Origin: Anaeromyxobacter dehalogenans 2CP-C
Lineage (GTDB): Bacteria > Myxococcota > Myxococcia > Myxococcales > Anaeromyxobacteraceae
Assembly (NCBI RefSeq): GCF_000013385.1
Contig: NC_007760.1
Coordinates: forward strand, 4,128,001 to 4,192,000
DNA: 64,000 nucleotides
Direction of reading: 5' to 3'
Under the pieces are notes generated by a model, which was not told where the DNA came from, did not search any database, and saw only the letters and a list, made by a program, of their open reading frames with translations. How positions within the stretch are numbered: position 1 is the stretch's first letter; each line of letters opens with the position of its first letter. Positions 1-64,000 of the stretch are shown here, piece by piece. Position numbers and translations under genes: made by a program.

Positions 1-471
1 CTGCCACATCCCCCGACGTCCTGCGCCCTCGCGCTCCTCCTGGCGACGGCGCTATCGCTCGTCGCGCCAGCCGCGGCGCGCGCGGCGAGCTGCAGCCTGA
101 CCATGGGCACGTCGATCGCGTTCGGCGCCTACGACCCGCTCTCCCCCGTGCCGCTCACCACCACCGGCATGCTGCAGTACCGCTGCTCGCGCGGGCAGCC
201 CATCCGCATCACGTTCACCGCCGGAAGCTCCGGCGACGTGTACGCCCGCACGCTGCGCCAGGGACCCTGGACGCTCGCGTACAACCTGTATGCGGACGCG
301 GGCTTCGGGACGGTCTGGGGGGACGGCACCGGCGGCACCGCGGCCGCGCCCGCCGTCACCACGCTCTCGAACGGCCTCACCGTGGCCTACGTCTTCGGGC
401 GCATCCCCGCGCGGCAGGAGCCGCCGGTCGGCCCGTACTCCGACACCATCGTGGTGACGTTCGAGTTCTGA
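1..471 (+). CDS. Spore coat U (SCPU) domain secreted protein, 5' end outside window
   Basis: The reading frame is open from base 1 and ends at a TGA at 469-471; the true start lies before the window. The first ~29 visible codons are a hydrophobic signal peptide ending in an Ala-rich cleavage region. The mature part starts with a Cys and the motif FGAYDPL, and ends with a YGRIPA segment and an alternating hydrophobic last strand. This is the layout of SCPU/CsuA-B type secreted pilin-like proteins, usually exported by a chaperone-usher system. The next gene is a paralogue with the same motifs, so the two probably belong to one locus continuing to the left. The family call is good; the role as a pilus or spore-coat subunit is inferred. 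Confidence 0.8.
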   Translation: MPHPPTSCALALLLATALSLVAPAAARAASCSLTMGTSIAFGAYDPLSPVPLTTTGMLQYRCSRGQPIRITFTAGSSGDVYARTLRQGPWTLAYNLYADAGFGTVWGDGTGGTAAAPAVTTLSNGLTVAYVFGRIPARQEPPVGPYSDTIVVTFEF

Positions 472-673
472 CCGCGCGTCCGCGCGCGCAGCCTGCGCCC
501 GGACGATATCGCGGACGAGCCGGACCCACCGCGGCGCCTGCGCGGCGACAGCGCCCCCGCGTTGACCACGGGTCACGCGCTCTTCACGTGGGATGGGGAT
601 GCCGGGCGGCCTCGACCCCGGTTAGCGTCCGAGCCTCGCGATCTCGCGAACGTTCACCCAAGGAGTCATCCAC

Positions 674-1171
674 ATGCAGAAGCTCGCCCTGCGCCTCGCG
701 CTCGCCATCGCCGCCCTCACCCTCACCGCCGGCGCCGCTCGTGCTGCGAGCGCGACCGCCACCCTCGACGTCACCGCCACGGTGGTCCCCTCCTGCACGA
801 TCGCCGCCACGCCGGTCGCGTTCGGCAGCTACGACCCGCTCGTCACGAACGCCGCCACGGCGCTCGACGCGCAGGGCACCGTGACGGTCACCTGCACGAC
901 CGGCACGGCGTACACCGTGGGTCTCGGCGCCGGGAACAGCGGCAGCGGCAGCCGCGCCATGCAGCACGCCTCGATCGCCGGCGCGCAGCTCCCGTACGAG
1001 CTCTACCAGGAGGCGGCCCGCACCACGGTCTGGGACAGCACGGTCATGCAGGCCGGCACCGCCGCGAGCATCACCCCGGTCCAGTACACGGTGTACGGCC
1101 GCATCCCGGCCGCCCAGAACGTCCCGACCGGCAACTACGCCGACGCGGTCGTCGCCACCGTCACGTTCTAG
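674..1171 (+). CDS. Spore coat U (SCPU) domain secreted protein
   Basis: 165 residues. A signal peptide spans about residues 1-24 (LALAIAALTLTAGAARA), followed by a single SCPU domain with SCTIAATPVAFGSYDPL near residue 40 and YGRIPAAQNVPTGNY near the C terminus. An AAGGAGT ribosome binding site sits about 9 bases before the ATG. It is a paralogue of the truncated gene at the window start; the 202 bases between them hold no gene. SCPU proteins are secreted subunits of CsuA/B-like adhesive pili. No chaperone or usher gene is visible, so assembly partners must lie to the left or elsewhere. Confidence 0.85.
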   Translation: MQKLALRLALAIAALTLTAGAARAASATATLDVTATVVPSCTIAATPVAFGSYDPLVTNAATALDAQGTVTVTCTTGTAYTVGLGAGNSGSGSRAMQHASIAGAQLPYELYQEAARTTVWDSTVMQAGTAASITPVQYTVYGRIPAAQNVPTGNYADAVVATVTF

Positions 1172-1193
1172 CCGCTCGCCGTCGCCGCACCCT

Positions 1194-1225
1194 GCGCGCC
1201 GGTCCGCACCCGCGGGCCGGCGCGC
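1194..1225. terminator. GC hairpin between convergent genes
   Basis: A perfect 9-bp stem (GCGCGCCGG pairing with CCGGCGCGC, loop 1203-1216) lies between the + strand SCPU gene and the - strand cyclophilin gene. There is no U-tract, so this is a stem-only, probably bidirectional terminator; its function is inferred from position. Confidence 0.5.
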
Positions 1226-1261
1226 GCTCCCGACACGTCACGATCCGTCAAGGGCGACCGC

Positions 1262-1879
1262 CTACCGCTGCGCCGCGCCGGCCGGGCCGACCACCCGCGC
1301 CGCGAGGATGCGGACCGGCGGCGACAGCGCCTGGCCCTTCGCCGGCGCCCTGTGGATGCGCCGCACCACGTCCATGCCGCGCACCACCCGGCCGAACGCG
1401 GCGAAGCCCTGGCCGTCCGGGTTGCGGCGGCCGCCGAAGTCCAGCTCCGGCTGCGCGCCCACGCAGACGAAGAAGTCGCTGGTGGCCGTGTCCGGTCCCG
1501 CGCGCGCCATCGAGATCGCGCCGTCCACGTGGCGCAGCCCCGTGTCGCGCGTGCGCTCCAGCCGGATGGGCGCGTGGTCGCGCTCCGCCCGCGCCGGCGC
1601 CACGCCCGCCTGCACCACGTCGATCTTCACCGGGCTGGCTGGCTGGTTGCCGGGGCGCACCGTGCGATGGAACCGGCCGCCGTCGTAGCGCCCCTCGCGC
1701 ACGTAGCGGAGGAAGTTGGCCACCGTCGCCGGCGCGCGCGCCGCGTCCAGCACCAGCTCGAGCTCGCCGAGCTCGGTCGTCATCACGACGTGGACCGGGG
1801 CCGCAGGCGCCGGCGGCGAGGCCGCGGGGGTCGCGGGGGCGGCGGCGAGCAGCAGCGCGAGGAGCGGGGACGCGATCAT
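1262..1879 (-). CDS. Cyclophilin-type peptidylprolyl cis-trans isomerase, probably periplasmic
   Basis: 205 residues. A short hydrophobic, Ala-rich leader (residues 1-25) suggests export. The cyclophilin domain spans about 30-200: a beta-strand start TELGELELVL, the FHRTV core near 70-74 carrying the catalytic Arg, and GAISMARAGPDTATSDFFV near 120-138, equivalent to the family's MA-x-SQFFI segment. It would isomerise Xaa-Pro bonds during folding of exported proteins. Several core positions depart from the E. coli PpiA pattern (TSDFF instead of SQFF), which is usual for secreted paralogues in this group. It stands alone and converges with the SCPU gene. Confidence 0.85.
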   Translation of the reverse strand: MIASPLLALLLAAAPATPAASPPAPAAPVHVVMTTELGELELVLDAARAPATVANFLRYVREGRYDGGRFHRTVRPGNQPASPVKIDVVQAGVAPARAERDHAPIRLERTRDTGLRHVDGAISMARAGPDTATSDFFVCVGAQPELDFGGRRNPDGQGFAAFGRVVRGMDVVRRIHRAPAKGQALSPPVRILAARVVGPAGAAQR

Positions 1880-1949
1880 TCAGCCAGCGTAGCGCCCGAT
1901 GCGGCCCACGCCATTTCTCCACACGCGGCGGCGCCGCCGGGGCACGCCG

Positions 1950-2226
1950 TCATCGCCGCAGCGCGTCCCGGATGTCGCGCAGCAGGACGACCTCCTCCGG
2001 AGGCGCGGGCGGCGGAGGCGGCGGCTCGGCCCTCCGCAGCCGGTTGAACTGCTTCACCATCAGGAAGACGATGAACGCCAGGATCAGGAAGTTCAGGGCG
2101 ACGGTGAGGAAGCTGCCGTACGCGAAGACTGGCACGCGCGCCTTCTTCATGGCGTCGAGCGCACGGGGAACACCCGGCGGGATCTCCCTCAGGGCCACGA
2201 AGTAGTCCTTGAAGTCGAAGCCTCCC
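1950..2226 (-). pseudogene. mscL: Truncated mscL paralogue lacking its N-terminal half
   Basis: The C-terminal ~90 codons closely match the intact mscL at 3173-3619 ([12 protein letters not shown], the second membrane helix, KQFNRLRRAE and the final EVVLLRDIRDALRR). Identity stops abruptly at about 2222, just before GGFDFKD. The first transmembrane helix that lines the MscL pore is absent, and the upstream bases are unrelated. The frame is open further upstream only as antisense to aqpZ, with no plausible start. This is a decapitated duplicate, probably not making a channel. It still keeps an intact stop and C-terminal helix, so a recent origin is likely. Confidence 0.8.
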
Positions 2227-2361
2227 CACCGGGCGGCGCCGCGCCGCACCCCCTTGGCCGCACTCGGATGGCCCGCCCGCCTCCACGCACGATCCGTGCT
2301 ATCGGAAGCGCACCGGAAGCTCACGTCGCGAGCGTGGAGGCACGCGCGGAGGTCGATCGTC

Positions 2362-3099
2362 ATGCCTTTGGCCCACCGGATGGCAGCGGAGTTCGTCGGT
2401 ACGTTCTGGCTCGTCCTCGGCGGTTGCGGCAGCGCGGTCCTCGCCGCCGCGGTCCCTGAGCTGGGGATCGGGTTCCACGGCGTCGCGCTCGCGTTCGGGC
2501 TGACCGTGCTCACGATGGCGTTCGCGATCGGGCACGTGTCCGGCTGTCACCTCAACCCCGCGGTGACGGTGGGACTCACCGTCGCGCGTCGCTTCCCCGG
2601 CGCCGACGTCGGGCCGTACGTCGTCGCGCAGGTGCTCGGCGCCGTGGCCGGGGCCGGCGTGCTGTACCTCATCGCGTCCGGCAGGGCGGGCTTCGACGTC
2701 ACGGCAGGCTTCGCGTCCAACGGCTTCGCAGAGCACTCGCCCGGCGGGTACGCGATGGGCGCGTGCTTCCTGACCGAGCTGGTGATGACGTTCGCGTTCC
2801 TGTTCGTGATCCTGGGCGCGACCGACGAGCGCGCGCCGAAGGGCCTCGCCCCGATCGCGATCGGGCTCTGCCTCACGCTCGTCCACCTCGTCAGCATCCC
2901 CGTCACCAACACCTCGGTGAACCCCGCCCGGTCCACCGGGCCGGCGCTGTTCGCGGGCGGCTGGGCGCTCGCGCAGCTGTGGATGTTCTGGATCGCGCCC
3001 ATCGTGGGCGCGGCGCTGGCGGGGGTCGTCTACCCGCTCGTCGCCGGCGGCCGCGCCGCGCAGCGTCGAGCGACGACCTCGCACGCGAGCGCGGCCTGA
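2362..3099 (+). CDS. aqpZ: Aquaporin Z (water channel)
   Basis: 245 residues, six transmembrane helices and both NPA boxes of the aquaporin family: HLNPAVTVG in the first half and SVNPARSTG in the second. The [10 protein letters not shown] helix and the FEHSPGGY-like loop fit AqpZ rather than a glycerol facilitator. The ATG at 2362 follows a GGAG box by about 9 bases; a second ATG at 2380 is possible. It mediates passive water flow across the inner membrane. It lies between a truncated and an intact mscL, so the locus joins the fast water channel to the emergency osmotic valve. Confidence 0.92.
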
Positions 3100-3130
3100 C
3101 GCACCCGCACGAGCGCCCGGTTCACGGCGG

Positions 3131-3157
3131 CGGAGCCCCGCGCACCGCGAGGCTCCG
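3131..3157. terminator. Hairpin between convergent aqpZ and mscL
   Basis: A 7-bp stem CGGAGCC / GGCTCCG encloses a 13-base GC-rich loop in the 73-base gap between the two convergent genes. No U-tract. Terminator role inferred from position. Confidence 0.35.
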
Positions 3158-3172
3158 GGCGGCAGCGCCTCG

Positions 3173-3619
3173 TCACCGCCGCAGCGCGTCCCGGATCTCG
3201 CGCAGCAGGACGACGTCCTCCGGAGGCGCGGCGGGCGCGGGCGGCGGCTCGGCCTTCTTCAGCCGGTTGAACTGCTTCACCATGAGGAAGATGATGAACG
3301 CCAGGATGATGAAGTTGATGGCGATGGTGATGAAGCTGCCGTAGGCGAAGACCGGGACCCCCGCCTTCTTGACCGCGTCGAGGGCGTGGGGGACACCCGG
3401 CGGGATCTCCTTCAAGGCCACGAAGTAGTCCTTGAAGTCGAAGCCCCCGAAGATCGCGCCGACCACGGGCATCACGAGATCGTTGACGATCGAGTCCACT
3501 ATCTGCCCGAAGGCGGCGCCGATGATGACGCCCACCGCCAGGTCGACCACGTTCCCCTTCAGCGGTGACGGGCGCGAAGGCGACGGCGCGGTGACGCGGG
3601 CGCCGGGCTCGCCGGTCAC
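3173..3619 (-). CDS. mscL: Large-conductance mechanosensitive channel MscL
   Basis: The body is canonical Msc[17 protein letters not shown] forms the first, pore-lining helix, then the periplasmic loop, the second helix ([19 protein letters not shown]), KQFNRLKK and a charged C-terminal bundle. It opens on membrane tension to release solutes in osmotic downshock. The N terminus is odd: the usual amphipathic segment (of the type EFKEFAVKGN) is replaced by a Pro/Ser-rich stretch, and no ATG lies near the expected place. The best start is the GTG at 3619, overlapping the stop of the methyltransferase gene, giving 148 residues. The start is therefore uncertain although the family is not. Confidence 0.82.
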
Positions 3620-4266
3620 ACTCGGCCGGTGAACGCCACGGCGAAGATGCGCGCGATCCCCGTCAGCGACCGAACGCGGACATCCTTCAGCCCCGCGGCC
3701 TGCATCGCGCGGACGAGGTCGTCGGGCCGGTGCCGCGGGTACCGGAACAGCAGCCGGAACGGGAGATCGGGGGCGAGCGGGCGCGTCGTCACGAGGACGA
3801 CCCACGCGCCCGGCCGCGCGACGCGGGCCAGCTCGCGGATGGCCGGCGCAGGGTCCGCGAGGTGGTCGAGCACCAGCGCACTGATCACCGCGTCCATCCC
3901 TGCATCGCGGATCGGCAGCGCACGGACGTCCGCCCGCGCCAGGAACGGCCTCGCGCCCTGCCTCCCGAGCCTCGCGGAGGCCCGCGCCAGCAGCCGCGGC
4001 GACAGGTCCACGCCGTACGCGCCCGCGCGAGCTCCGCCTGCCCGGATGGCCGCCTCGCTGAACAGGCCCGCGCCGATGCCGCAGTCGAGGACGCGCCCCG
4101 GAGGCGCCCGGTGAGGCCCGTCCGCCTCGAGCCGGGCGAGCAGCCTACGGTACGCGCGCGCGTAGGTGAGCGCGTGGAGGAAGGAGTCCCAGTACCAGGC
4201 GGTCGCGTCGTAGATCCCGGCGAGCCAGGACGCACGCTCGGCGCCGCGTGCCGGTCGAGGTTCCAT
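3616..4266 (-). CDS. Class I SAM-dependent methyltransferase
   Basis: 216 residues. The Rossmann-type SAM site is visible: motif [16 protein letters not shown] (about residues 58-72), an acidic strand end [26 protein letters not shown], and the post-motif helix ending in [16 protein letters not shown]. The fold resembles UbiE/COQ5-like methyltransferases; the substrate cannot be read from sequence. A GGAGG box precedes the ATG. Its TGA overlaps the proposed GTG start of mscL, so the two may be translationally coupled. Confidence 0.8.
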
Positions 4267-4348
4267 GCGTTGCCTCCTGGTTTACCGGGAGGTCCTAGGC
4301 GACGCGAAGTGACCGCTCCACCCGCGAAGCCGTCCGCCTGGCCGCTCC

Positions 4349-5150
4349 TCATGCCCTGGGATGGTGCAGGATCTCCCTCGCCCTCATCCACGGTCCGAGG
4401 AGCGCGACCTCCGTCTCGGTCACCGGCCGGTTCGCGAACCCCTTCCACTCCGACACGCGCCAGCCGCCCATGCACGGGGAGATCGCGATGGTGAGCCCCC
4501 TGCTGCCGACCTGGGCGTGGAAGACGACGGCCTCGCCCCGCTGGATCTTCTCGCGGTAGTCCGTCACGCAGCTGCGCATCCGCAGGCCCTCGGCCCGCAG
4601 CTCGTGCAGCGTGACGATCCGTCGGACCTCCACGCCGTTCGCGGCCCAGTCCTCGATGACGTGACGCGAGAGCGGGGCGCTCCGCGGCGCGGCGGGGGAG
4701 CCGGCCGGGGCCGCTGCGCCGCCAACCGGGCGCACGAGCGCCACCTCGGGCGCCGCGACCACCGGGCGGCGCGTCCTCAGCGGCGAGCTTCCGCGCGGCC
4801 CACGCCAGCGCGTAGGCGAAGAACTCGGGCCGACCCGCGCCGGGCCAGCGGCGCGACATCGACCAGTGCAGTCGCTCGGGCGAGTCGGACTGGATCGTCA
4901 CCCAGAGGAGCGGGCGCAGACGAACCTCGATCCCGATGGACCACGCGCCGGGCCCGTCCTGCTGCGCCTCGAGCGACGCCCGCGCGACGTCCCGGGCGCG
5001 CGACACGGTGACCAGGACCGAGCGCGGTCCGACCGCCAGGCGCTCGCGCCACGACGGCGGCACCGCGCGGCCGACCGGCGCGCACACGACCGGGCTCGGC
5101 GGCGGGCCGCCGGCGAAGCGGAACGCGGCCTGGGGGGAGGCGCCGGGCAC
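4349..5150 (-). pseudogene. PcfJ-like protein gene with a frameshift
   Basis: Two open frames on the same strand look like one gene. The 5' part (GTG at 5150 to about 4775) encodes a soluble N-terminal region ending in ARKLAAEDAP. The 3' part, open at 4349-4762 in another frame, carries the PcfJ-type core LRAEGLRMRSCVTDY and a trailing LTIAISPCMGGWRVSEWKG. A one-base change near 4765-4790 would join them into ~265 residues. PcfJ family proteins are mostly known from plasmids and accessory regions and their function is not settled. Either the gene is inactive or there is a base-calling error here. Confidence 0.5.
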
Positions 5151-5267
5151 GACCGTACATCATCCCCGGCGGTCGGACAGTCTGCCGTGAGGGCGCGCTC
5201 CGCGTGAAGGCGGGGCTCGACTTCGGGTACACTGCGGGGCTCACGCCCGTCGTCATGGGGGTCGCCG

Positions 5268-8200
5268 GTGCTCTCGCTCGTCGCCACAGTCGTCCTCGCC
5301 GCCGCGCCCGCCCTGCCGCCGTGGGACGCCGCGTTCCTGGAAGCACCGGCCGCAGAGGTCGCGCGCGCGGCGGCCGCGCTCACGCCTCCTGAGCGCGCGC
5401 TGGACCCGCTGCACCACGAGGTCCGGTTCGTCGTGGACGACGCGGGCCGGGTCACCACGACGGTCCGCGCCGCCTTCCGGATCCTCACGCAGGCGGGCGT
5501 CGAGGCGATGGCGCAGGTTTCCGCCCCCTGGCAGCCCTGGCATCACGATCGCCCGGCGATCCGCGCCCGCGTGATCACGCCGGACGGCCTGGCGCACGCG
5601 CTCGATCCCGCCACGCTGGTCGAGTCCGGAGCGCCGGAGGGCGAGCGGACGCTGCGCGACGCTCGGCAGCTCCACGCCGTGCTGCCCGCCCTCGCGGTGG
5701 GCGCCGTGATCGAGGTCGAGATCGCGACCGGCGAGCACACGCCGTTCGCGGCGCCGGGAGCGGTGGGATCCGTCTCGCTCGACGGCCCCGGCTGGCGGCG
5801 GCAGATCGTCCGGATCGAGGCGCCCGCACGCCTCCAGCTGCGCCACCGGCTGTCGGGGCGCGTCCTGGCCCCGCGCGCCGGCACGGCCGGCGACCGCCGC
5901 ACGCTGGAGTGGAGCTGGGCCCCGTCTCCGTCGCACCCACCCGGCGAGCCGCTCGCGCCCGCCGTGAGCGGCGACGGGCCGAACCTCGTGTTCACGACGG
6001 CGCGCTCATGGGAGGAGCTGGCGACGTGGTACTCCGCCCAGGTGGATCGGTCCCTCGCCGGTGCCGACCTCGCCACGCTGGCGCGGGAGATCGCGGGCGG
6101 AGCCGCCACACCGGAGCAGGCCGCGGCGCGACTGGTCGAGTGGATGCAGACCCGCGTCCGCTACACGGCGCTGGAGATCGGCGCGGGGGCCGTCATCCCG
6201 GCGCGTCCCTCCGACGTCCTCTCCCGCGCCTACGGCGACTGCAAGGATCTCTCGACGCTGCTGGTCGGCTTGCTGCGCGCGCTGGGCCACCCTGCGGACG
6301 TGGTCCTCGCGCGGGCCGATCGCGTCGACATCGATGCCGAGCTCCCGGGGATGTTCTTCGACCACGCCCTCGTCCGCGTCGGCGGCCCGCACCCAAGGTA
6401 CGTGGACCCGACGTTCCCGGCGCTGCCCGTCGGCTTGCTGCCGCCGAACCTCGAGGATCGATGGTCGCTGGCCGCGCGGCCCGGTGCCCGGCTCGAGCGG
6501 CTGCCCCGGAACCCGCTGTCCGCGTACCGGGGCGAGCTGGACCGTGAGCTTCAGCTGGACGGCCCCGGCAAGGCGAAGGCGCGGGAGGTCCGGCGGTATC
6601 ACGGACTCTTCGCCGCGATCCATCGCGCCGCGCGCGCTGGCCACCCCGAGGACGAGCTTCGCAAGCGGGACGAGGGCGAGGCCAGGGAGCGGCTCAAGGC
6701 AGCGCGGGCCACCGCGACGTTCCGGGACCGGGCGGATGGGACCGTGGAGATCGTCTCCGAGGCCGAGGGCTCTGCCCTGGCCAGCGCCGAGGACGATTCG
6801 GCGGAGGCCCGTCCGGAGCGCCGGGTGCTCTCCTGCCTCCAGGACCAGCTCTGGCCCCAGGACGCCGGCAAGGACGCGCGCTCGCAGCCGCTGACGATCG
6901 AGCTTCCGTGCGTGGGCGAGAGCCGGTACCGGATCCGGCCGCCCCGCGGCATGCGCGTGGCGGGCTCGCTCCCGCCGGACCTCGACCTCGCGGAGGAACA
7001 CCTCCGCTACCAGGAGACGTACCGGGCCGAGCGCGACGGCACGGTCGTGGTCACCCAGCGGCTGGAGCAGCGCCACGGCCCGGTGCCGCCGGCCGAGGTG
7101 ACCTCCTGGCGCCGCCGGCTGCGCGCGCTGGGCAAGGACGCGCCCGTGATCCGGTTCGAGCGGACCAGCCAGGCGCTCCTGACGCAGGGACGCGGCCGCG
7201 AGGCGCTCGAGGAGCTGCGGCGGGTCCTGTCCGAGTCCGGCGGCGACCTCCCATCGCGCGTCCGGTACGCGGCCGGCCTGGGCGAGCTCGGGATGGTGGA
7301 CGCCGCGCGGAGGACCGCCGAGGAGGCGGTGCGCCTGGCGCCCGAGAGCGGCTGGGCCTGGCGCGTGCTCGCGATCCAGCGCGCCCGCGGATCGTTCGGG
7401 GAGACGCTCACGTCGGGCTGCGATCTCCCCGGGGCGATCGCGGCCCAGCGGCGCGCCTCGGAGCTCGAGCCGAGAGCGGGAGGGACGCGCGGGTACCTGG
7501 GATACCTGCTCCTGCAAGGCGCCGATTGCCGGTACATGGCCGCCGGCGCGCGCCCCGAGGAAGCGCTCGAGCCGCTGCGCCACGCGCGCGACGTGCTCGG
7601 CAACCACCGCTTCGACGACGACCTGGCGACCGCGCTGCTCGCGCTGGGGAGGGCGGCGGAGGCCACGGCCGTCGCGCGCGAGATGCCCGCAGGGAAGCAG
7701 CGGGACGTCGTGCTGCTGGCCGCGCTCACCTCGAGCGAGGGAGTGGAGGCCGCGGCGGCGGAGGCCCGTGCGATGACGGCGCAGCGGCGCGGCGATGCGC
7801 TGCTCGGCGCCGCCAGCCGCCTGCAGCGGCAGCGCGCGTTCGGCCAGGCGGCGGCGCTCCTCGACGCCGCGAGCGACGGGTCCGAGAACATCGCCACCCT
7901 GAGGTCGCGCGCCGCGGTGCTCCGCCGCGTGAAGCGCCTCGGACCGGACGAGGTTCCGCCGGGACCGGAGGGCGTCCCGGTCCGCGTGTTCCGGGCGGTC
8001 GCGGGGCTCGCGCCGCTCACCGACGTGCTCTCGGCCGATCGCCCATCCGCGGACGGAGGGGTGGTCGAGACGTTCCTGCGGACGATGCGGCAGCGCATCA
8101 CGGGAGAGCTCGACGGCGCCGCGCTGGTGGACCTCCTCGCCGCCGCCCTGGAGCCGAAGTTCGACGGCGATGCGCGCGAGGGCGGCCCCCTGGCCGCCGG

Positions 8201-55360: not shown

Positions 55361-55446
55361 CGCGGCGGCGGCCGCGGGCGGGCAGCCGGCCTGCCGTTCT
55401 TGCACCACGTGCCGAATCGGCAGTAGAAGGGGCGGCAGGAGGCCCC

Positions 55447-56925
<1,479 letters not shown>

Positions 56926-57034
56926 TGCGGCAGCCGCCGGCCGCGGCCGGCCTGGACGCCAAGCGCCGGGATTCCCTGCGTTCCGGATGAAATGACGCGG
57001 TGGCGCGGTTCCTGCTCTCGGGTGGGACGACGCG

Positions 57035-57421
57035 ATGCAGACCGCCCCGCCGCCCCCCTCCGTCCTGCTCCTCGCCCACCCCACGCCGGCGAGCGAGGAC
57101 CTGTTCGCCGACCTCGCCCGCCGCGAGGACCTGTGCCTGCTGCGCGTCGCCACCGCGGCGGCCGCGAACCGGACCATCGACGAGATGCCGGTCGCGCTGG
57201 TGGTGACCTGCCCCGAGGTCCCGGTGGCGGCGGTGGAGTCGGTGCTGTCGCACCTGGAGCGCGCGCGCCCGGGCACGCCGGTGCTGGCCGTGCGCCCGCG
57301 GCAGCCGCCCGAGCCGGCCGGCTGGGGCGAGCGCGGCGTGGCGGTGCTGCGCCTGCCGCTGCTCGCCGGCGTGCTGTCGCGGTCGATCGACGTGGTCCTC
57401 GGCATGAAGCGCCTCGGCTGA
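57035..57421 (+). CDS. Receiver-like protein without obvious phospho-Asp
   Basis: 128 residues. Alternating strands and helices (VLLLAHPTPASEDLFADLA, VALVVTCPEVPVAAVESVLSH, TPVLAVRPRQPPEP) resemble a CheY-like fold but the acceptor Asp after strand 3 is replaced by Cys-Pro. Either a pseudo-receiver or a small regulator of the sigma-54 activator encoded upstream. No family confirmed. Confidence 0.5.
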   Translation: MQTAPPPPSVLLLAHPTPASEDLFADLARREDLCLLRVATAAAANRTIDEMPVALVVTCPEVPVAAVESVLSHLERARPGTPVLAVRPRQPPEPAGWGERGVAVLRLPLLAGVLSRSIDVVLGMKRLG

Positions 57422-57437
57422 AAGGAACCGGAACGGA

Positions 57438-58133
57438 ATGCAGCTCACCGAACGCGACGCGGCCCGCCTCCTCGGCGTCACCGAGGCCACCCTGCAGCGG
57501 TGGCTGAGGAGCGGCGAGCTCGCCGCCTCCCGGGTCAACGAGCAGTACCGCCTGAACAAGATCGACCTGCTCGAGTTCGCCTCCTCGCGCGGGCTGGAGA
57601 TCTCGCCCGACCTGCTCGCCGAGCTGGAGCAGCCGGCGCTGCCCAGCCTGGCGGAGGCGATCCGCGCCGGCGGCGTGCACCACGGCCTGGCGGGCGCCGA
57701 CAAGGCGGCCACGCTGCGCGACCTGGTGGACCGGCTCGCGCTCCCGCGCGAGGCCGATCGCGACCTGGTGCACCGGATGCTCCTCGCCCGCGAGGCGCTC
57801 GGCTCCACCGGCGTGGGGAACGGCATCGCCATCCCGCACGCGCGGAACCCCATCGTCCTGCACGTGGCCACGCCGGCGGTGGCCATCAGCTACCTCGACC
57901 GCCCGGTGGACTTCGAGGCGCTGGACGGGAAGCCGGTGCACACGCTCGTGCTGCTGGTGAGCCCGTCCACCCGCGCGCACCTGCACCTGCTCGCGCTGGT
58001 CGCCACGGCGCTCCGCGACCCGGGCGTGCTCGCGGCGCTCGACGCGCGCGCCGGGGTGGACGCGCTCCTCCCCGAGATCGAGCGGGTCGAGGCCGCCATC
58101 GCCGAGAAGCGCGCGGCGGCGAGGAAGCCATGA
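57438..58133 (+). CDS. HTH plus PTS EIIA (fructose type) protein
   Basis: 231 residues. The N-terminal excisionase/MerR-like HTH (LTERDAARLLGVTEATLQRWL) spans 1-55, joined to an EIIA-2 domain (~70-225) with the phospho-His134 in GNGIAIPHARNP. Such fused proteins can read the phosphorylation state of the PTS. A strong AAAGGAA site precedes the ATG. The stop overlaps the ATG of the following hydrogenase-type subunit gene (ATGA), tying this regulator to that operon. Confidence 0.85.
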   Translation: MQLTERDAARLLGVTEATLQRWLRSGELAASRVNEQYRLNKIDLLEFASSRGLEISPDLLAELEQPALPSLAEAIRAGGVHHGLAGADKAATLRDLVDRLALPREADRDLVHRMLLAREALGSTGVGNGIAIPHARNPIVLHVATPAVAISYLDRPVDFEALDGKPVHTLVLLVSPSTRAHLHLLALVATALRDPGVLAALDARAGVDALLPEIERVEAAIAEKRAAARKP

Positions 58134-60127
58134 CGCTCTACGTCGCCGCGCTCGCCGTGCTCGTGGCCGGCGGGCTCGCCGCCCTGGCCGTCTCCGCGCG
58201 CCCGCGCCTGGCGCTCGCGGTGGGGAGCGCCAGCGCCGCGCTGGGCTGCGCGCTCGGCCTCGCCGCCTCGCTCGCCGCGCTGCGCGCCCCGCCCGCCGCG
58301 CTCGACCTCCCCTGGCCGGTGCCCTTCGGCGCGCTGGCGCTCGGCCTCGACCCGCTCTCGGCCGCGTTCGCGACCGCGGTCTTCGCGCTCGGCCTTGCGG
58401 CCTCGATCTACGGCGCCGGCTACCTGCGCCCGCAGGCGGACCGCCGCGCCATGGGCCCGTTCGCGCTGTTCTTCGCGCTCACGCTCGCGAGCATGGCGCT
58501 CGTGGTGGCGGCGCGGCAGGCGGTGCTGTTCCTGGTGGCGTGGGAGGGCATGACCGCCGCGTCGTTCCTGCTCGTCGCCCACGAGCACGAGGACGCCTCG
58601 GTGCGCCGCGCCGCCCGCACCTACCTCGTGGCCTCGCACCTCGGCGCCGCGTTCCTGTTCGCGCTGTTCCTCGTGCTCGGGCGCGAGGCGGGGTCGCTCC
58701 GCTTCGAGGCGTTCGCCGCGCTCCGGGCCGGCGGCGCGCCCGCGGCGCTCCTGTTCCTGCTCGCGCTGGTCGGCTTCGGCACCAAGGCCGGCCTGGTGCC
58801 GCTGCACGTGTGGCTGCCCGAGGCGCACCCCGCCGCCCCGAGCCACGTCTCCGCGCTCATGTCCGGCGTGCTCGTGAAGATGGGCGTGTACGGCATCCTG
58901 CGGGTGCTGACGTTCCTGCCGCCCGCGCCGGCCTGGGCCGGGCTGCTGCTCGCCGGGGTGGGCCTGGCGGGCGCGCTCGCGGCGCTGGCGCTCGCGCTCG
59001 GGCAGCGCGACCTGAAGCGCGTGCTCGCCTACTCCACCGTCGAGAACGTGGGGATCGTCGCGCTCGCCGCGGGGCTGGGGCTGATCGGCGCCGCGTACCA
59101 CGCGCCGCTGGTGGCGGCGCTCGGCGTCACCGCCGCGCTGCTCCACGTCTGGAACCACGCGCTCATGAAGGGGCTCGCGTTCCTGGGCGCCGGGGCGCTG
59201 GTGCACGGGGCCGGCACGCGCGACCTGGAGCGGATGGGCGGGCTGCTCCGGCGGCTGCCGTGGACCGGCGGCCTGCTGGTGCTCGCCGCGGTGGCGCTGT
59301 GCGGGCTGCCCCCGCTGAACGGCTTCGTCTCGGAGTGGCTCGTGTACCTGGGCCTGCTGCAGGGCGGCAGCGGGACGGGCGGGCTGGCGCTGGCGGCGTG
59401 GCTCGCGCTCGCCGCGCTGGCGCTGGTGGGCGCGCTCGCCGCGGTGGTGTTCACCCGGCTCCTCGGCACCGCGCTCCTGGGCGAGCCGCGCAGCGAGGAG
59501 GCGGCGCACGCGCACGAGGCCGGGCCGCTCGTGCTCGCGCCGCTCGCGCTGCTCGGGGCCGGGAACGTGGCGCTGGCGCTGTTCCCGGCGCAGGCGGCCG
59601 CGCTGCTCGCGCCCGCCGCCGCGCAGGTCCTCGGGACCACCGAGGGCGAGGTGCTCGCCGCGCTCGCGCCCGCCACCGGCGCGCTCGCCGGGCCCATGCG
59701 CGCGGGCGTCCTGGTGCTGGTGGCGCTCGGCGGCGCGCTCGCGCTGGCGGCGCGGCGGCTGCGGGCGGGCCGCCCGGTGGCCACCTCGTCCACCTGGGGC
59801 TGCGGCTTCTCCGCGGCGAGCCCGCGCGTCCAGTACACCGCCGCCTCCTACGCGCAGCTCGCGCTGGCCGCGGCGGTCCCGCGCCCGCTCCGGCCGCGCG
59901 CGCGCCTGCGGCCGCCGGAGGGCGCGTTCCCGGCGGGCGCCTCGCTCGCGCTGGAGGGCGACGACCCGGCGCGCACCCGCGTGTTCGAGCCGGCGTTCCT
60001 GCGGGTGGGCGGCTGGTTCAGCCGGCTGCGCGGCTTCCAGCAGGCCCGCCTCAACCTCCAGCTCCTCTACACCGTCGCGGCGCTGCTCGGCCTCTCGGCG
60101 CTGCTCCTCCTCCGGTACGGTCCGTGA
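58130..60127 (+). CDS. hyfB: Group 4 hydrogenase membrane subunit, NuoL/HyfB-like
   Basis: 665 residues, ~16 membrane helices. The proton-translocating antiporter core has GFGTKAGLVPLHVWLPEAHPAAPSHVSALMSG with the lysine, and the ENVGI and HALMKGLAFLGAGALVHGAGTRDLE segments. C-terminal STWGCGFSAASPRVQYTAASY is the extension typical of HyfB/HycC-type subunits. It should pump H+ or Na+ driven by electron transfer to a hydrogenase module. ATGA overlap with the HTH-EIIA gene and GTGA overlap with the next gene. Confidence 0.85.
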   Translation: MTLYVAALAVLVAGGLAALAVSARPRLALAVGSASAALGCALGLAASLAALRAPPAALDLPWPVPFGALALGLDPLSAAFATAVFALGLAASIYGAGYLRPQADRRAMGPFALFFALTLASMALVVAARQAVLFLVAWEGMTAASFLLVAHEHEDASVRRAARTYLVASHLGAAFLFALFLVLGREAGSLRFEAFAALRAGGAPAALLFLLALVGFGTKAGLVPLHVWLPEAHPAAPSHVSALMSGVLVKMGVYGILRVLTFLPPAPAWAGLLLAGVGLAGALAALALALGQRDLKRVLAYSTVENVGIVALAAGLGLIGAAYHAPLVAALGVTAALLHVWNHALMKGLAFLGAGALVHGAGTRDLERMGGLLRRLPWTGGLLVLAAVALCGLPPLNGFVSEWLVYLGLLQGGSGTGGLALAAWLALAALALVGALAAVVFTRLLGTALLGEPRSEEAAHAHEAGPLVLAPLALLGAGNVALALFPAQAAALLAPAAAQVLGTTEGEVLAALAPATGALAGPMRAGVLVLVALGGALALAARRLRAGRPVATSSTWGCGFSAASPRVQYTAASYAQLALAAAVPRPLRPRARLRPPEGAFPAGASLALEGDDPARTRVFEPAFLRVGGWFSRLRGFQQARLNLQLLYTVAALLGLSALLLLRYGP

Positions 60128-62088
60128 CCTCCGCGCTCGCCCTCGGCGCCATCGCCCTCACCGCCGCGAGCGGGCTCGCCGCGGCGCTGCCCGGCCTCCG
60201 CCCGGCGCGCGCGCAGGCGCTCGCGACCGCGGCGCTCTGCGCCGGCGCGGCGCTGGGCCTGGCCGCGGCGGCGGCGGCGCTGGCGGGGGGCGAGGCGGCG
60301 GCGGGCGGGGCGCTGCGGGTGGACGCGCTCTCCGGCCTGTTCCTCGTGCCGATCCTCGGCATCGGCGCCGCGGGCTCGGTGTACGGGCTGCGCTACTTCC
60401 CGCAGGCGGAGCGCGGGGCGCGCGCGGTGCGGCTCCAGGTCTTCTACGGGCTCGCGGTCGCCGGGATGGCGCTGCTCGTGTGCGCCGCCGACGCCATCGG
60501 CTTCCTGGTCGGCTGGGAGGTGATGGCGCTCGCGAACTTCTTCATGGTGCAGACCGAGGACGAGGATCCCTCGGTCCGGCGCGGCGCGTTCCTGTACCTC
60601 GCCGCCACCCACGCCGGCACGCTGGCGCTGTTCGCGCTGTTCGCGCTGCTGCGGCGCGAGGCGGGCAGCTTCGAGCTCGAGGCCATGGAGGGGCTGCGGC
60701 TCTCCGGCCCGACCGCCGCCGCGGTGCTCGCGCTCGCGGTGGCCGGCTTCGGCATGAAGGCCGGGCTCGTCCCGCTCCACTTCTGGCTCCCCCCGGCGCA
60801 CGCGGCCGCGCCCAGCCACGTGTCCGCGCTCATGTCCGGGGTGGTGGTGAAGACCGGCATCTACGGGCTGATGCGGGTGACGGGCCTGGTGGACGCGCCG
60901 CCCGAGTCCTGGGGCGTGGCGCTGCTCGCGCTGGGCGGCGTCTCGGCGGTGCTGGGCGTCGCGTTCGCGCTCGCGCAGCACGATCTCAAGCGGCTGCTCG
61001 CGTACCACACCGTGGAGAACGTCGGGATCATCGCGCTCGGGCTGGGCCTCGCGGTGCTGGGGCGCGCCCGCGGGATCCCGGCGCTGGTGGTCCTCGGGCT
61101 GGGCGGCGCCGGCCTGCACGTCGTCAACCACGCGCTGTTCAAGTCGCTCCTGTTCCTGGGCGCCGGCGCGGTGCACCACGCCACCGGCACCCGCGAGCTC
61201 GACCACCTGGGCGGCCTCGCGCGCGCCATGCCCCGCACCGCGCTGCTGTTCGTGGTCGGCGCCGCGGCCATCAGCGGGCTCCCGCCGCTGAACGGCTTCG
61301 CCTCCGAGTGGCTGGTCTACCTCGGGCTCCTCGACGGCCTGCGCCAGCCCGGGGGCGACCTGCTCGCCTACGTGACGCTGGGCGCGCCGGCGCTGGCGCT
61401 CGTGGGCGGGCTCGCCGCGGCCTGCTTCGCGAAGGTGGTCGGGGTGGTGTTCCTGGGCAGCCCGCGCAGCGAGCACGCGCGCGGCGCGCACGAGCCGCCC
61501 GCGGCCATGCTCGCGCCCATGGCGCTCCTCGCCGCCGCCTGCGCCGCCATCGGCCTGTTCCCGGCCGCGACCACCGCGCCGCTCGCCCGCGCCGCGGCCG
61601 CCTGGGCCCGGGTGGACCCCGCCCTGCTCGCCGCCCCGGCCGCGCGCGCGGCCGCCGGCGCCGCGCGGGTGAGCGCGGTGGCCGCCGTGCTGCTCGTGGC
61701 CGCGCTGGCCGTGGCCGCCTGGCGGCGCCGCCGCCTGGCCGGCCGGGTCGCGCCCGCCCAGCCGACCTGGGGCTGCGCCTTCGCCGCGCCGACCGCCCGC
61801 ATGCAGTACACCGGCTCGTCGCTCGCCGCGCTGCTGCTGGCGCGCTTCACCTGGGCCATCTTCCCGCGGCGCACCGAGCCGCGCCTCGAGGGTCCCTTCC
61901 CCGCGGCGGCGCCGTTCGCCACCGCGGTCCCGGACACGGTCCTCGACCTCGCCCTCCTCCCGGTGGCGCGCGCGTACGGCTGGCTCGCCGAGCGCGCGCG
62001 CCTCCTCTACCTCCGCCGGATCCAGTTCCAGATGCTGCTCGTGCTCCTGACGCTCCTCGCCGTCCTCGCCTGGGGGTTCGCGTGGTGA
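60124..62088 (+). CDS. Second NuoL/HyfB-like membrane subunit
   Basis: 654 residues from a GTG at 60124. A paralogue of the preceding protein: GFGMKAGLVPLHFWLPPAHAAAPSHVSALMSG, ENVGIIALGLG, HALFKSLLFLGAGAVHHATGTRELD and the same C-terminal TWGCAFAAPTARMQYT extension. Two consecutive HyfB-type genes mean the complex probably has two large antiporter subunits. Overlaps at both ends by stop-start codons confirm one transcript. Confidence 0.83.
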   Translation: MTSALALGAIALTAASGLAAALPGLRPARAQALATAALCAGAALGLAAAAAALAGGEAAAGGALRVDALSGLFLVPILGIGAAGSVYGLRYFPQAERGARAVRLQVFYGLAVAGMALLVCAADAIGFLVGWEVMALANFFMVQTEDEDPSVRRGAFLYLAATHAGTLALFALFALLRREAGSFELEAMEGLRLSGPTAAAVLALAVAGFGMKAGLVPLHFWLPPAHAAAPSHVSALMSGVVVKTGIYGLMRVTGLVDAPPESWGVALLALGGVSAVLGVAFALAQHDLKRLLAYHTVENVGIIALGLGLAVLGRARGIPALVVLGLGGAGLHVVNHALFKSLLFLGAGAVHHATGTRELDHLGGLARAMPRTALLFVVGAAAISGLPPLNGFASEWLVYLGLLDGLRQPGGDLLAYVTLGAPALALVGGLAAACFAKVVGVVFLGSPRSEHARGAHEPPAAMLAPMALLAAACAAIGLFPAATTAPLARAAAAWARVDPALLAAPAARAAAGAARVSAVAAVLLVAALAVAAWRRRRLAGRVAPAQPTWGCAFAAPTARMQYTGSSLAALLLARFTWAIFPRRTEPRLEGPFPAAAPFATAVPDTVLDLALLPVARAYGWLAERARLLYLRRIQFQMLLVLLTLLAVLAWGFAW

Positions 62089-63005
62089 ACGCGCCCATGG
62101 TCCTGCGCACCGCGCTGCACGTGGTCGCGCTGCTCGTCCTCCCGCCGCTGCTGCTCGGCGTGATCAACCGCGTGAAGTCGATCGTCGGCGGCCGCCGCGG
62201 CCCGCCGCTGCTCCAGCCGTACCTCGACCTCGCCAAGCTGCTGCGCAAGGGCGCGGTCTACAGCCGGACCACGACCTGGGTGTTCCGCGCCGGCCCGGTG
62301 ATCGGGCTCGCGGCGACCGCCTCCGCCGGCGTGCTCCTCTCCATGGGCGGCGCCCCCGCGCCCATCGCGTTCGCCGGCGACTTCGTCCTGTTCGCGTACC
62401 TGCTCGGCCTGGGCCGCTTCTTCACCGCGCTCGCCGCGCTCGACACCGGCTCGTCGTTCGAGGGGATGGGCGCCGCGCGCGAGGTGACGTTCGCGAGCCT
62501 GGCCGAGCCGGCGCTGTTCCTCTGCCTGCTGGTCCTGGCGCGCGCCACCGGCTCGCTCTCGCTCTCCGGCATGCTCGGCCCGGACCTCGACGCCGCCTGG
62601 TCCTCGGCCGCGCCCGGCCTGCTGCTCGCCGCCATCGGCCTGTTCGTGGTGGCGCTGGCCGAGTGCTCGCGCATCCCGGTGGACGACCCCAACACGCACC
62701 TCGAGCTCACCATGATCCACGAGGTGATGGTGCTCGACCACGGCGGGCCCGACCTGGCGCTGATCCTGTACGGCGCGGCCATGAAGCTGTTCCTGTTCGG
62801 CGCGCTGCTCTCGCGCCTGGTGCTCGGCCACGGCGCCGGCGCGCTCGCCTCGGAGGCGCTGTTCCTCCTCGGCGTGCTCGCGTTCGCGGTGGCGGTGGGC
62901 GTGGTCGAGTCGGTGATGGCCCGGCTGCGCATCGTGCGCGTGCCGCAGCTCCTGGTGGGCGCCTCGGTGCTGTCCGCCTTCGCGCTGGTCCTCCTGCTCC
63001 GGTGA
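62085..63005 (+). CDS. hyfC: NuoH/HycD/HyfC-like membrane subunit
   Basis: 306 residues from a GTG at 62085 (ATG at 62097 is an alternative). The NuoH family segments KSIVGGRRGPPLLQPYLDLAKLL, SRIPVDDPNTHLELTMIHEVMVLDHGGPDLAL and EGMGAAREVTFA are present. This subunit forms the connecting channel near the hydrogenase module, in the position of the quinone chamber of complex I. Eight helices. Confidence 0.88.
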   Translation: MNAPMVLRTALHVVALLVLPPLLLGVINRVKSIVGGRRGPPLLQPYLDLAKLLRKGAVYSRTTTWVFRAGPVIGLAATASAGVLLSMGGAPAPIAFAGDFVLFAYLLGLGRFFTALAALDTGSSFEGMGAAREVTFASLAEPALFLCLLVLARATGSLSLSGMLGPDLDAAWSSAAPGLLLAAIGLFVVALAECSRIPVDDPNTHLELTMIHEVMVLDHGGPDLALILYGAAMKLFLFGALLSRLVLGHGAGALASEALFLLGVLAFAVAVGVVESVMARLRIVRVPQLLVGASVLSAFALVLLLR

Positions 63006-63009
63006 CCCC

Positions 63010-63657
63010 GTGACCAACCTCACCGACCTCGTCTTCATCCTCGTCGTCGTCATCGACTTCTTCCTGCTCGCCTCGAGCCGGCTCGGCGCCGCCATCCGCG
63101 CGGTCGCCACGCAGGGCGCGCTGCTCGCGGCCCTGCCGCTGCTGCTGCTGGAGGGCGGCCACCAGGTCGGCCACGTCCTGCTGCTCGCGGCCGGGGCGCT
63201 CGCCATCAAGGGCGCGCTCATCCCCTGGCTCATGTTCCGCGCCATCCGCGAGGCGTCCATCCGCCGCGAGATGGAGCCCATCGTCGGCTTCGTCCCGTCG
63301 ATGGTGCTGGGCGGCATCGGGGTGGCGCTCGCGTTCGCGTTCTCCAGCCGCCTGCCGCTCCCGGGCGGCGAGGCGCACCCGTACCTGGTCCCGACCGCGC
63401 TCTCGACCGTGTGGGCGGGGATGCTGCTGGTGGTCTCGCGCAAGAAGGCCGTCAACCAGGTGCTGGGGTTCCTGGTGCTGGAGAACGGCGTCTACGTCTT
63501 CGGCCTGCTGCTCACCGGGATCATGCCGGTGATGGTGGAGGCGGGCGTGCTGCTCGACCTGTTCGCCGCCGTGTTCGTCATGGGCATCGTCATGTTCCAC
63601 ATCAACCGCGAGTTCGCCTCGCTCGACACCGAGAAGCTCTCGGCGCTGAAGGACTGA
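63010..63657 (+). CDS. hyfE: HyfE-like membrane subunit
   Basis: 215 residues from a GTG. Multiple helices; NuoK-like elements (KKAVNQVLGFLVLENGVYVFGLLLTGIMPVMVEAGVLLDLFAAVFVMGIVMFHI) with the Glu in LEN and in VEAGVLLDLF. E. coli HyfE is of similar size. Follows hyfC after 4 bases. Confidence 0.82.
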   Translation: MTNLTDLVFILVVVIDFFLLASSRLGAAIRAVATQGALLAALPLLLLEGGHQVGHVLLLAAGALAIKGALIPWLMFRAIREASIRREMEPIVGFVPSMVLGGIGVALAFAFSSRLPLPGGEAHPYLVPTALSTVWAGMLLVVSRKKAVNQVLGFLVLENGVYVFGLLLTGIMPVMVEAGVLLDLFAAVFVMGIVMFHINREFASLDTEKLSALKD

Positions 63658-63663
63658 CCGCGC

Positions 63664-64000
63664 ATGGTGCTCCTCATCGCCGCCCCGCTCGCGCTCGCGC
63701 TGGTCGCGTTCGCGATGCCCTCCGCCCGGCGCCGCCCGCTGGTGCTCCTCGCCGGCGCGCTGGTCCACGCCGCCGGCGTCCTGGCGCTGCTCGCCGCGCC
63801 CCCGCCCGCCCGCGAGGGCGCCTGGCTCGCGTTCGACCCGCTCGCGCGCGTGACGCTCCTCACCGCCACCGCGCTGTTCCTCGCCTCGGCGGTGTACGCG
63901 CAGGGCTACCTGGCCCGCCGCGCCGATCGCGACAACCGCGTGTTCGTGGGCGGCCTGCTGGTGCTGCTCTCGGCCATGACCACGGTGGCGCTCTCGCACC
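63664..64000 (+). CDS. hyfF: HyfF-like membrane subunit, 3' end outside window
   Basis: 112 codons visible from an ATG at 63664; the frame is still open at base 64000. The N-terminal helices (MVLLIAAPLALALVAFAM, LARVTLLTATALFLASAVYAQGYL) match the start of NuoM/HyfF-type subunits. The gene directly follows hyfE, continuing the hyf-like order E-F. Confidence 0.75.
   Translation, partial: MVLLIAAPLALALVAFAMPSARRRPLVLLAGALVHAAGVLALLAAPPPAREGAWLAFDPLARVTLLTATALFLASAVYAQGYLARRADRDNRVFVGGLLVLLSAMTTVALSH

Follow-up and report, generated by a model that had tools for sequence, protein, structure and literature searches.

An HTH-EIIA protein encoded ahead of Ehr genes in Anaeromyxobacter dehalogenans 2CP-C looks like a dedicated regulator of membrane ion machines

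Genes and features of the locus

The window, i.e. the whole stretch of DNA analyzed, is 64 kb long and corresponds to contig positions 4128001-4192000 of the closed 5,013,479-bp chromosome of A. dehalogenans 2CP-C. Its relevant features are collected in Table 1. The Ehr operon extends beyond the window end, and its last genes were read from locus L009 of the same genome.

Table 1 Features of the HTH-EIIA/Ehr locus (positions counted from the first base of the window; extended coordinates run past its end at 64000)
Feature	Position	Strand	Details
Palindrome TGCCGAATCGGCA	55410-55422		5' of NtrC gene; only perfect copy in the 5.01-Mb genome
NtrC-family sigma54 activator	55447-56925	+	492 aa; Sigma54_activat 220.7 bits, HTH_8 35.3
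Palindrome copy TGCCGGATCGGCA	56910-56922		1 mismatch; about 90 bp upstream of the sigma54-like promoter
Sigma54-like -24/-12 element TGGCGCGGTTCCTGCT	57001-57016	+	Ahead of pseudo-receiver/HTH-EIIA/Ehr
Pseudo-receiver protein	57035-57421	+	128 aa; 16 nt before HTH-EIIA
HTH_17-PTS_EIIA_2 regulator (HTH-EIIA)	57438-58133	+	231 aa; ATG at 57438, TGA ending at 58133; Pfam/NCBIfam
Putative phosphotransfer residues of HTH-EIIA	R118, H134, H181		Alignment
NuoL/HyfB-like antiporter subunit 1 of Ehr	58130-60127	+	Proton_antipo_M 171.9 bits
NuoL/HyfB-like antiporter subunit 2	60124-62088	+	GTG start, GTGA overlap
NuoH/HyfC-like membrane subunit	62085-63005	+	NADHdh PF00146 117.8 bits
HyfE (NuoK)-like membrane subunit	63010-63657	+	Oxidored_q2 21.8 bits, under cut-off 26.1; operon position
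HyfF/NuoN-like antiporter subunit	63664-65094 (extended)	+	Locus L009
NuoCD-like large subunit	65094-66659 (extended)		521 aa; locus L009
Small subunit (ferredoxin-NuoB fusion)	66656-67426 (extended)		256 aa; locus L009

The fusion of an HTH to a PTS-type phospho-His domain, proposed in an earlier sequence-only reading, was confirmed, as both Pfam cut-offs were passed: residues 3-51 match HTH_17 (PF12728; 45.3 bits, cut-off 27) and residues 84-211 match PTS_EIIA_2 (PF00359; 76 bits, cut-off 27). The EIIA domain was assigned overall to residues 70-211. The N-terminal domain also scored above the cut-off of TIGR01764 (excisionase-family), and the protein reached 74.1 bits against the PtsN equivalog model TIGR01419, under its cut-off of 138.7. 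Relatives in the PDB are the PtsN structures 3urr and 4gqx, and the AlphaFold2 model (pLDDT 94.5), in which a winged HTH is predicted confidently, matched PtsN in Foldseek. The EIIA model also matched the cytoplasmic domains of band 3/AE anion exchangers in fold, which we regard as a curiosity and not as evidence of function. H134, singled out earlier for mutation, is present and lies within the active-site motif GIAIPHAR. From the alignment and from knowledge of the family, we take R118, H134 and H181 to be the active-site Arg, the phospho-His and the second His of PtsN.

The upstream activator was placed in the NtrC family by its Sigma54_activat AAA+ domain and its C-terminal HTH, both of which are present. 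Its receiver is degenerate (Response_reg 17.4 bits, under the cut-off of 30.2); the phospho-Asp position is apparently Glu, as judged by eye, and the receiver was not counted as phosphorylatable. In the case of the pseudo-receiver protein, Pfam gave no match and the AlphaFold2 model (pLDDT 89.7) led to receiver domains in Foldseek. In relatives, the activator and pseudo-receiver genes stay next to Ehr whether or not HTH-EIIA is present.

When the upstream regions of five genus members were aligned, the conserved islands were a palindrome block and a sigma54-like block. Both are accounted for by NtrC/sigma54, and thus the conserved blocks of the promoter region yielded no operator for HTH-EIIA. 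The perfect palindrome TGCCGAWTCGGCA occurs 7 times in 12 genomes (this one and 11 relatives), every time at the Ehr locus. In Myxococcota genomes it is almost confined to one locus, and it appears to mark a dedicated NtrC-type regulon for Ehr. The -24/-12 element ahead of the pseudo-receiver, HTH-EIIA and Ehr genes is described here as sigma54-like: sites of this quality number 4 on both strands of the window, and the leader before the pseudo-receiver gene would be only about 8 nt in this genome. At three other loci (L041, L044 and L045) such an element stands directly before the HTH-EIIA gene. Judged from these sequences, the NtrC/sigma54 module appears to be the visible promoter-level control in Myxococcota, and a view based on phosphotransfer only appears incomplete.

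The genes downstream had been read as a group 4 proton-pumping hydrogenase, and this part of the reading did not hold. In the PDB, the large subunit is matched best by HycE of the E. coli formate hydrogenlyase (7z0s; E-value 3.8e-45). HycE carries the NiFe cysteine motifs, whereas the large subunit here has none of them. The N-terminal ligand motif (CGxC) is absent, with AGDT where CGIC is expected (AESIAGDTAVGH where HycE has SDRVCGICGFAH), and the C-terminal DPCxxC is replaced by NLSYAG within FNLSYAGHDL. A true group 4 [NiFe]-hydrogenase was therefore rejected, as both Ni-Fe cysteine pairs are missing. NiFe ligands are absent as well from the other full-length Ehr-linked large subunits examined. 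Antiporter subunit 2 scored 556 bits against the NCBIfam model for hydrogenase 4 subunit B, under the cut-off of that model. Because the locus encodes group-4/complex-I-like subunits and lacks the NiFe ligands, it was assigned to Ehr as defined previously (PMC6349859). This assignment is consistent with the 2008 genome paper of strain 2CP-C, in which only two NiFe hydrogenases (Adeh_0478 and Adeh_4162) are listed. The operon encodes antiporter-type subunits, and the Fe-S cysteines of the small subunit are retained (CSGC, GAC and PGCPP). Ehr would probably link redox chemistry of the ferredoxin type with ion translocation.

Two arrangements elsewhere were also recorded. In L097 (positions 3-5669), an EIIA gene whose 5' end is cut by the contig lies beside a genuine group 4 hydrogenase with CGIC and DPCVSC intact. 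Three relatives (L034, L035 and L048) carry two divergent Ehr operons side by side, with an NtrC gene between them in L034 and L035.

Conservation of the gene order

A total of 82 HTH-EIIA homologues, comprising the best 80 loci obtained on scanning 84,980 species genomes and the proteins of relatives, was compared, and their neighbourhoods were read by tblastn using the proteins of this operon and one ClC protein as queries. The next gene encodes an Ehr subunit in 51 of the 82 and a ClC chloride channel in 21 (two were tested and scored 272 and 267 bits against Voltage_CLC); the remaining cases are contig ends (6), Ehr nearby (1) and other genes (3). Gene order in relatives had been chosen beforehand as the refuting test, and it is conserved over about 20 phyla, including Myxococcota, Acidobacteriota, Planctomycetota, Verrucomicrobiota, Spirochaetota, Bacteroidota, Ignavibacteriota, Calditrichota, Zixibacteria, Omnitrophota and others. 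This is far wider than the sequence of a single locus could reveal. Searches of the open-access literature brought up no previous account of HTH-EIIA paired with either Ehr or ClC.

In the maximum-likelihood tree, the Ehr-linked and the ClC-linked proteins fall into separate groups, the exception being one long ClC branch. The sister clade precedes ClC genes with CBS domains (L088, L090-L092, L094, L096, L098, L101, L104, L105, L109, L111, L113, L114 and L123), and several Desulfobacterota ClC loci then encode a further conserved protein, about 275 aa long. Some Planctomycetota loci carry HTH-EIIA genes or domains in tandem pairs before Ehr (L057:10001-11441, L061:10001-11506 and L070:10001-11436).

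Among 60 relatives, 16 genomes encode a full-length HTH-EIIA, and on unbroken contigs the Ehr large subunit is found 5.8-7.7 kb downstream of it. About 15 of the 60, including the same-genus genomes G003 and G006, have Ehr without HTH-EIIA. Since the large scan gave best matches only, a profile search free of any His pattern was run on 148 genomes of one phylum (that of L079). It returned 20 matches, of which 14 are followed by Ehr and 6 by ClC. An Ehr large subunit was detected in 28 of the 148 genomes: in all 14 genomes with an Ehr-type HTH-EIIA versus 14 of the 134 others. Canonical HTH-EIIA is thus absent from roughly half of the sampled Ehr-bearing genomes. At three loci (L081, L103 and L158) the Ehr order is rearranged with the large subunit first, and HTH-EIIA is still adjacent.

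The ATGA overlap between the HTH-EIIA stop and the start of the first antiporter gene, at 58130-58133, is present as first read. It was rejected as specially informative within its own operon, whose genes mostly join at -4 or -1, so that such an overlap is ordinary there. With start codons picked mechanically, 27 of the 51 Ehr-linked homologues, from many phyla, offer the next gene a start that shares 4 or 1 bases with the HTH-EIIA stop; ClC-linked homologues mostly have gaps of roughly 2-40 nt to the next gene. Conservation of the overlap was thus borne out in part: tight coupling to Ehr recurs across phyla and is not universal.

Phosphotransfer and the control of Ehr

Across 42 Ehr-linked homologues, R118 and H134 do not vary, and H181 is conserved to at least 90 %. 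The 84,980-genome scan used a pattern containing the His, which is consequently present by construction in that set; the set from the 60 relatives and the set from the 148-genome profile search are free of this bias. All 20 matches of the profile search keep the His. However, invariance of H134 over the whole family was rejected, because searches without the His pattern gave at least five Ehr-linked members without a phosphorylatable His (L176-L179 and L181). L176-L179 form a pseudo-EIIA group that lost the His together with its motif, and the two of them that were aligned lost the Arg and the second His as well. L181 is otherwise canonical but reads GIAVPRPR, with Arg in place of the His. All five retain the HTH and the slot before Ehr, and in the L174 operon an XRE-cupin-type regulator, named from its sequence, occupies that slot. 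The losses weaken a universal phospho-switch at H134, and together with L174 they identify the position before Ehr as a regulator slot. Phosphorylation is probably used by most members of the family and not by all.

HPr is present in all 34 genomes tested for it and EI in all 10, and the A. dehalogenans genome has genes for both; as both proteins are common, this lends weak support. An EIIC sugar permease is absent from seven of eight genomes, this one among them, and the PTS here therefore looks regulatory. On this sequence evidence, phosphotransfer control of HTH-EIIA is plausible, and so is control of Ehr by HTH-EIIA.

The explanation we favour, with somewhat more confidence than doubt, is that HTH-EIIA is a dedicated, cis-encoded and usually phospho-switched regulator that tunes the amount of Ehr. 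Synthesis of the protein would coincide with, or shortly precede, that of the Ehr subunits, and DNA at or close to its own operon is the most likely target of its winged HTH. EI and HPr of a regulatory PTS without sugar permeases would, most likely, place phosphate on H134, so that the PEP/pyruvate state may tune how much Ehr is made. In Anaeromyxobacter, the adjacent NtrC-family activator appears to switch the operon on through the TGCCGAWTCGGCA palindrome and the sigma54 promoter; NtrC/sigma54 would decide between on and off, and HTH-EIIA would tune. This explanation is supported by the adjacency to Ehr in both the large set and the unbiased phylum sample, by the separate Ehr and ClC clades, and by an adjacency that survives rearrangement of the gene order. 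The regulator at L174, the conserved active-site residues, the presence of EI and HPr, the absence of EIIC, the confident winged HTH and the NtrC/palindrome/sigma54 observations support it as well. It is weakened by the failure to find an operator, by the His losses and by the Ehr genomes without canonical HTH-EIIA.

The main rival to this transcription model is a post-translational one, in which HTH-EIIA acts directly on the antiporter arm of Ehr, by analogy with PtsN and YcgO, and the HTH serves feedback or a secondary role. There is a precedent, as unphosphorylated PtsN binds and inhibits YcgO and phosphorylation weakens the binding (PMC11808508). Both clades have ion-translocating membrane proteins as partners, and the overlap of the antiporter start with the regulator stop in 27 of 51 Ehr cases favours co-synthesis; the resemblance to band 3/AE domains, by fold only, adds no more than a curiosity. 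However, the HTH is retained even where the EIIA active site is lost, an ordinary transcription regulator can fill the slot (L174), and in the three rearranged operons the neighbour is the large subunit and not an antiporter. We judge direct action rather unlikely as the principal mode.

It is less probable still that the EIIA domain is a ligand- or protein-binding module with a borrowed fold and not a phosphotransfer switch. L176-L179, without the His and its flanking motif, and L181 would suit such a module, all of them being upstream of Ehr, but R118, H134 and H181 are kept by the large majority and only a few proteins show the losses. That HTH-EIIA is a passenger, adjacent to Ehr through shared inheritance and with no regulatory link, is very improbable: Ehr operons without it do exist, but the adjacency holds over about 20 phyla and with partners of two types, the junctions are tight, and it persists in rearranged operons.

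Relation to known systems and wider meaning

As the pairing recurs over so many phyla, HTH-EIIA looks like a dedicated regulator of membrane ion machines that has not been described before. More tentatively, the unnamed, phylum-spanning HTH-EIIA family, with its Ehr and ClC clades, may serve generally to couple ion-translocating membrane machines to the PEP/pyruvate phosphorylation state, possibly by acting on both the operon DNA and the membrane protein. Ehr is widespread, and a dedicated phosphorelay-type regulator would help to learn when cells produce it and in response to which signal. The split into Ehr and ClC clades suggests that EIIA switches for ion-moving membrane proteins are broader than the PtsN/K+ examples of Proteobacteria, and those members that have naturally lost the His provide a built-in comparison for the role of the phosphate.

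In subunit make-up, the complex resembles E. coli formate hydrogenlyase and hydrogenase-4. It is also like the Ehr of Geobacter sulfurreducens (GSU0739-45), which has complex-I/group-4-like subunits and no NiFe site. That complex was raised with formate (PMC7894505, PMC13194489), and one of these two papers states that its physiological role there had never been investigated. The available text of the two papers (PMC7894505, PMC13194489) mentions no HTH-EIIA regulator for it, whereas one precedes the Ehr genes here.

HTH-EIIA shares its N-terminal domain with the HTH_17/excisionase-family DNA-binding proteins and differs from them by the fusion to EIIA. With PtsN (EIIA-Ntr of the nitrogen PTS), it shares the EIIA fold and the Arg/His/His active-site residues; PtsN likewise belongs to a regulatory PTS without sugar transport and is a precedent for the control of ion transporters. 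The A. dehalogenans genome also has a separate stand-alone EIIA besides HTH-EIIA. Unlike PtsN, HTH-EIIA has an N-terminal HTH and is encoded in cis with its apparent target.
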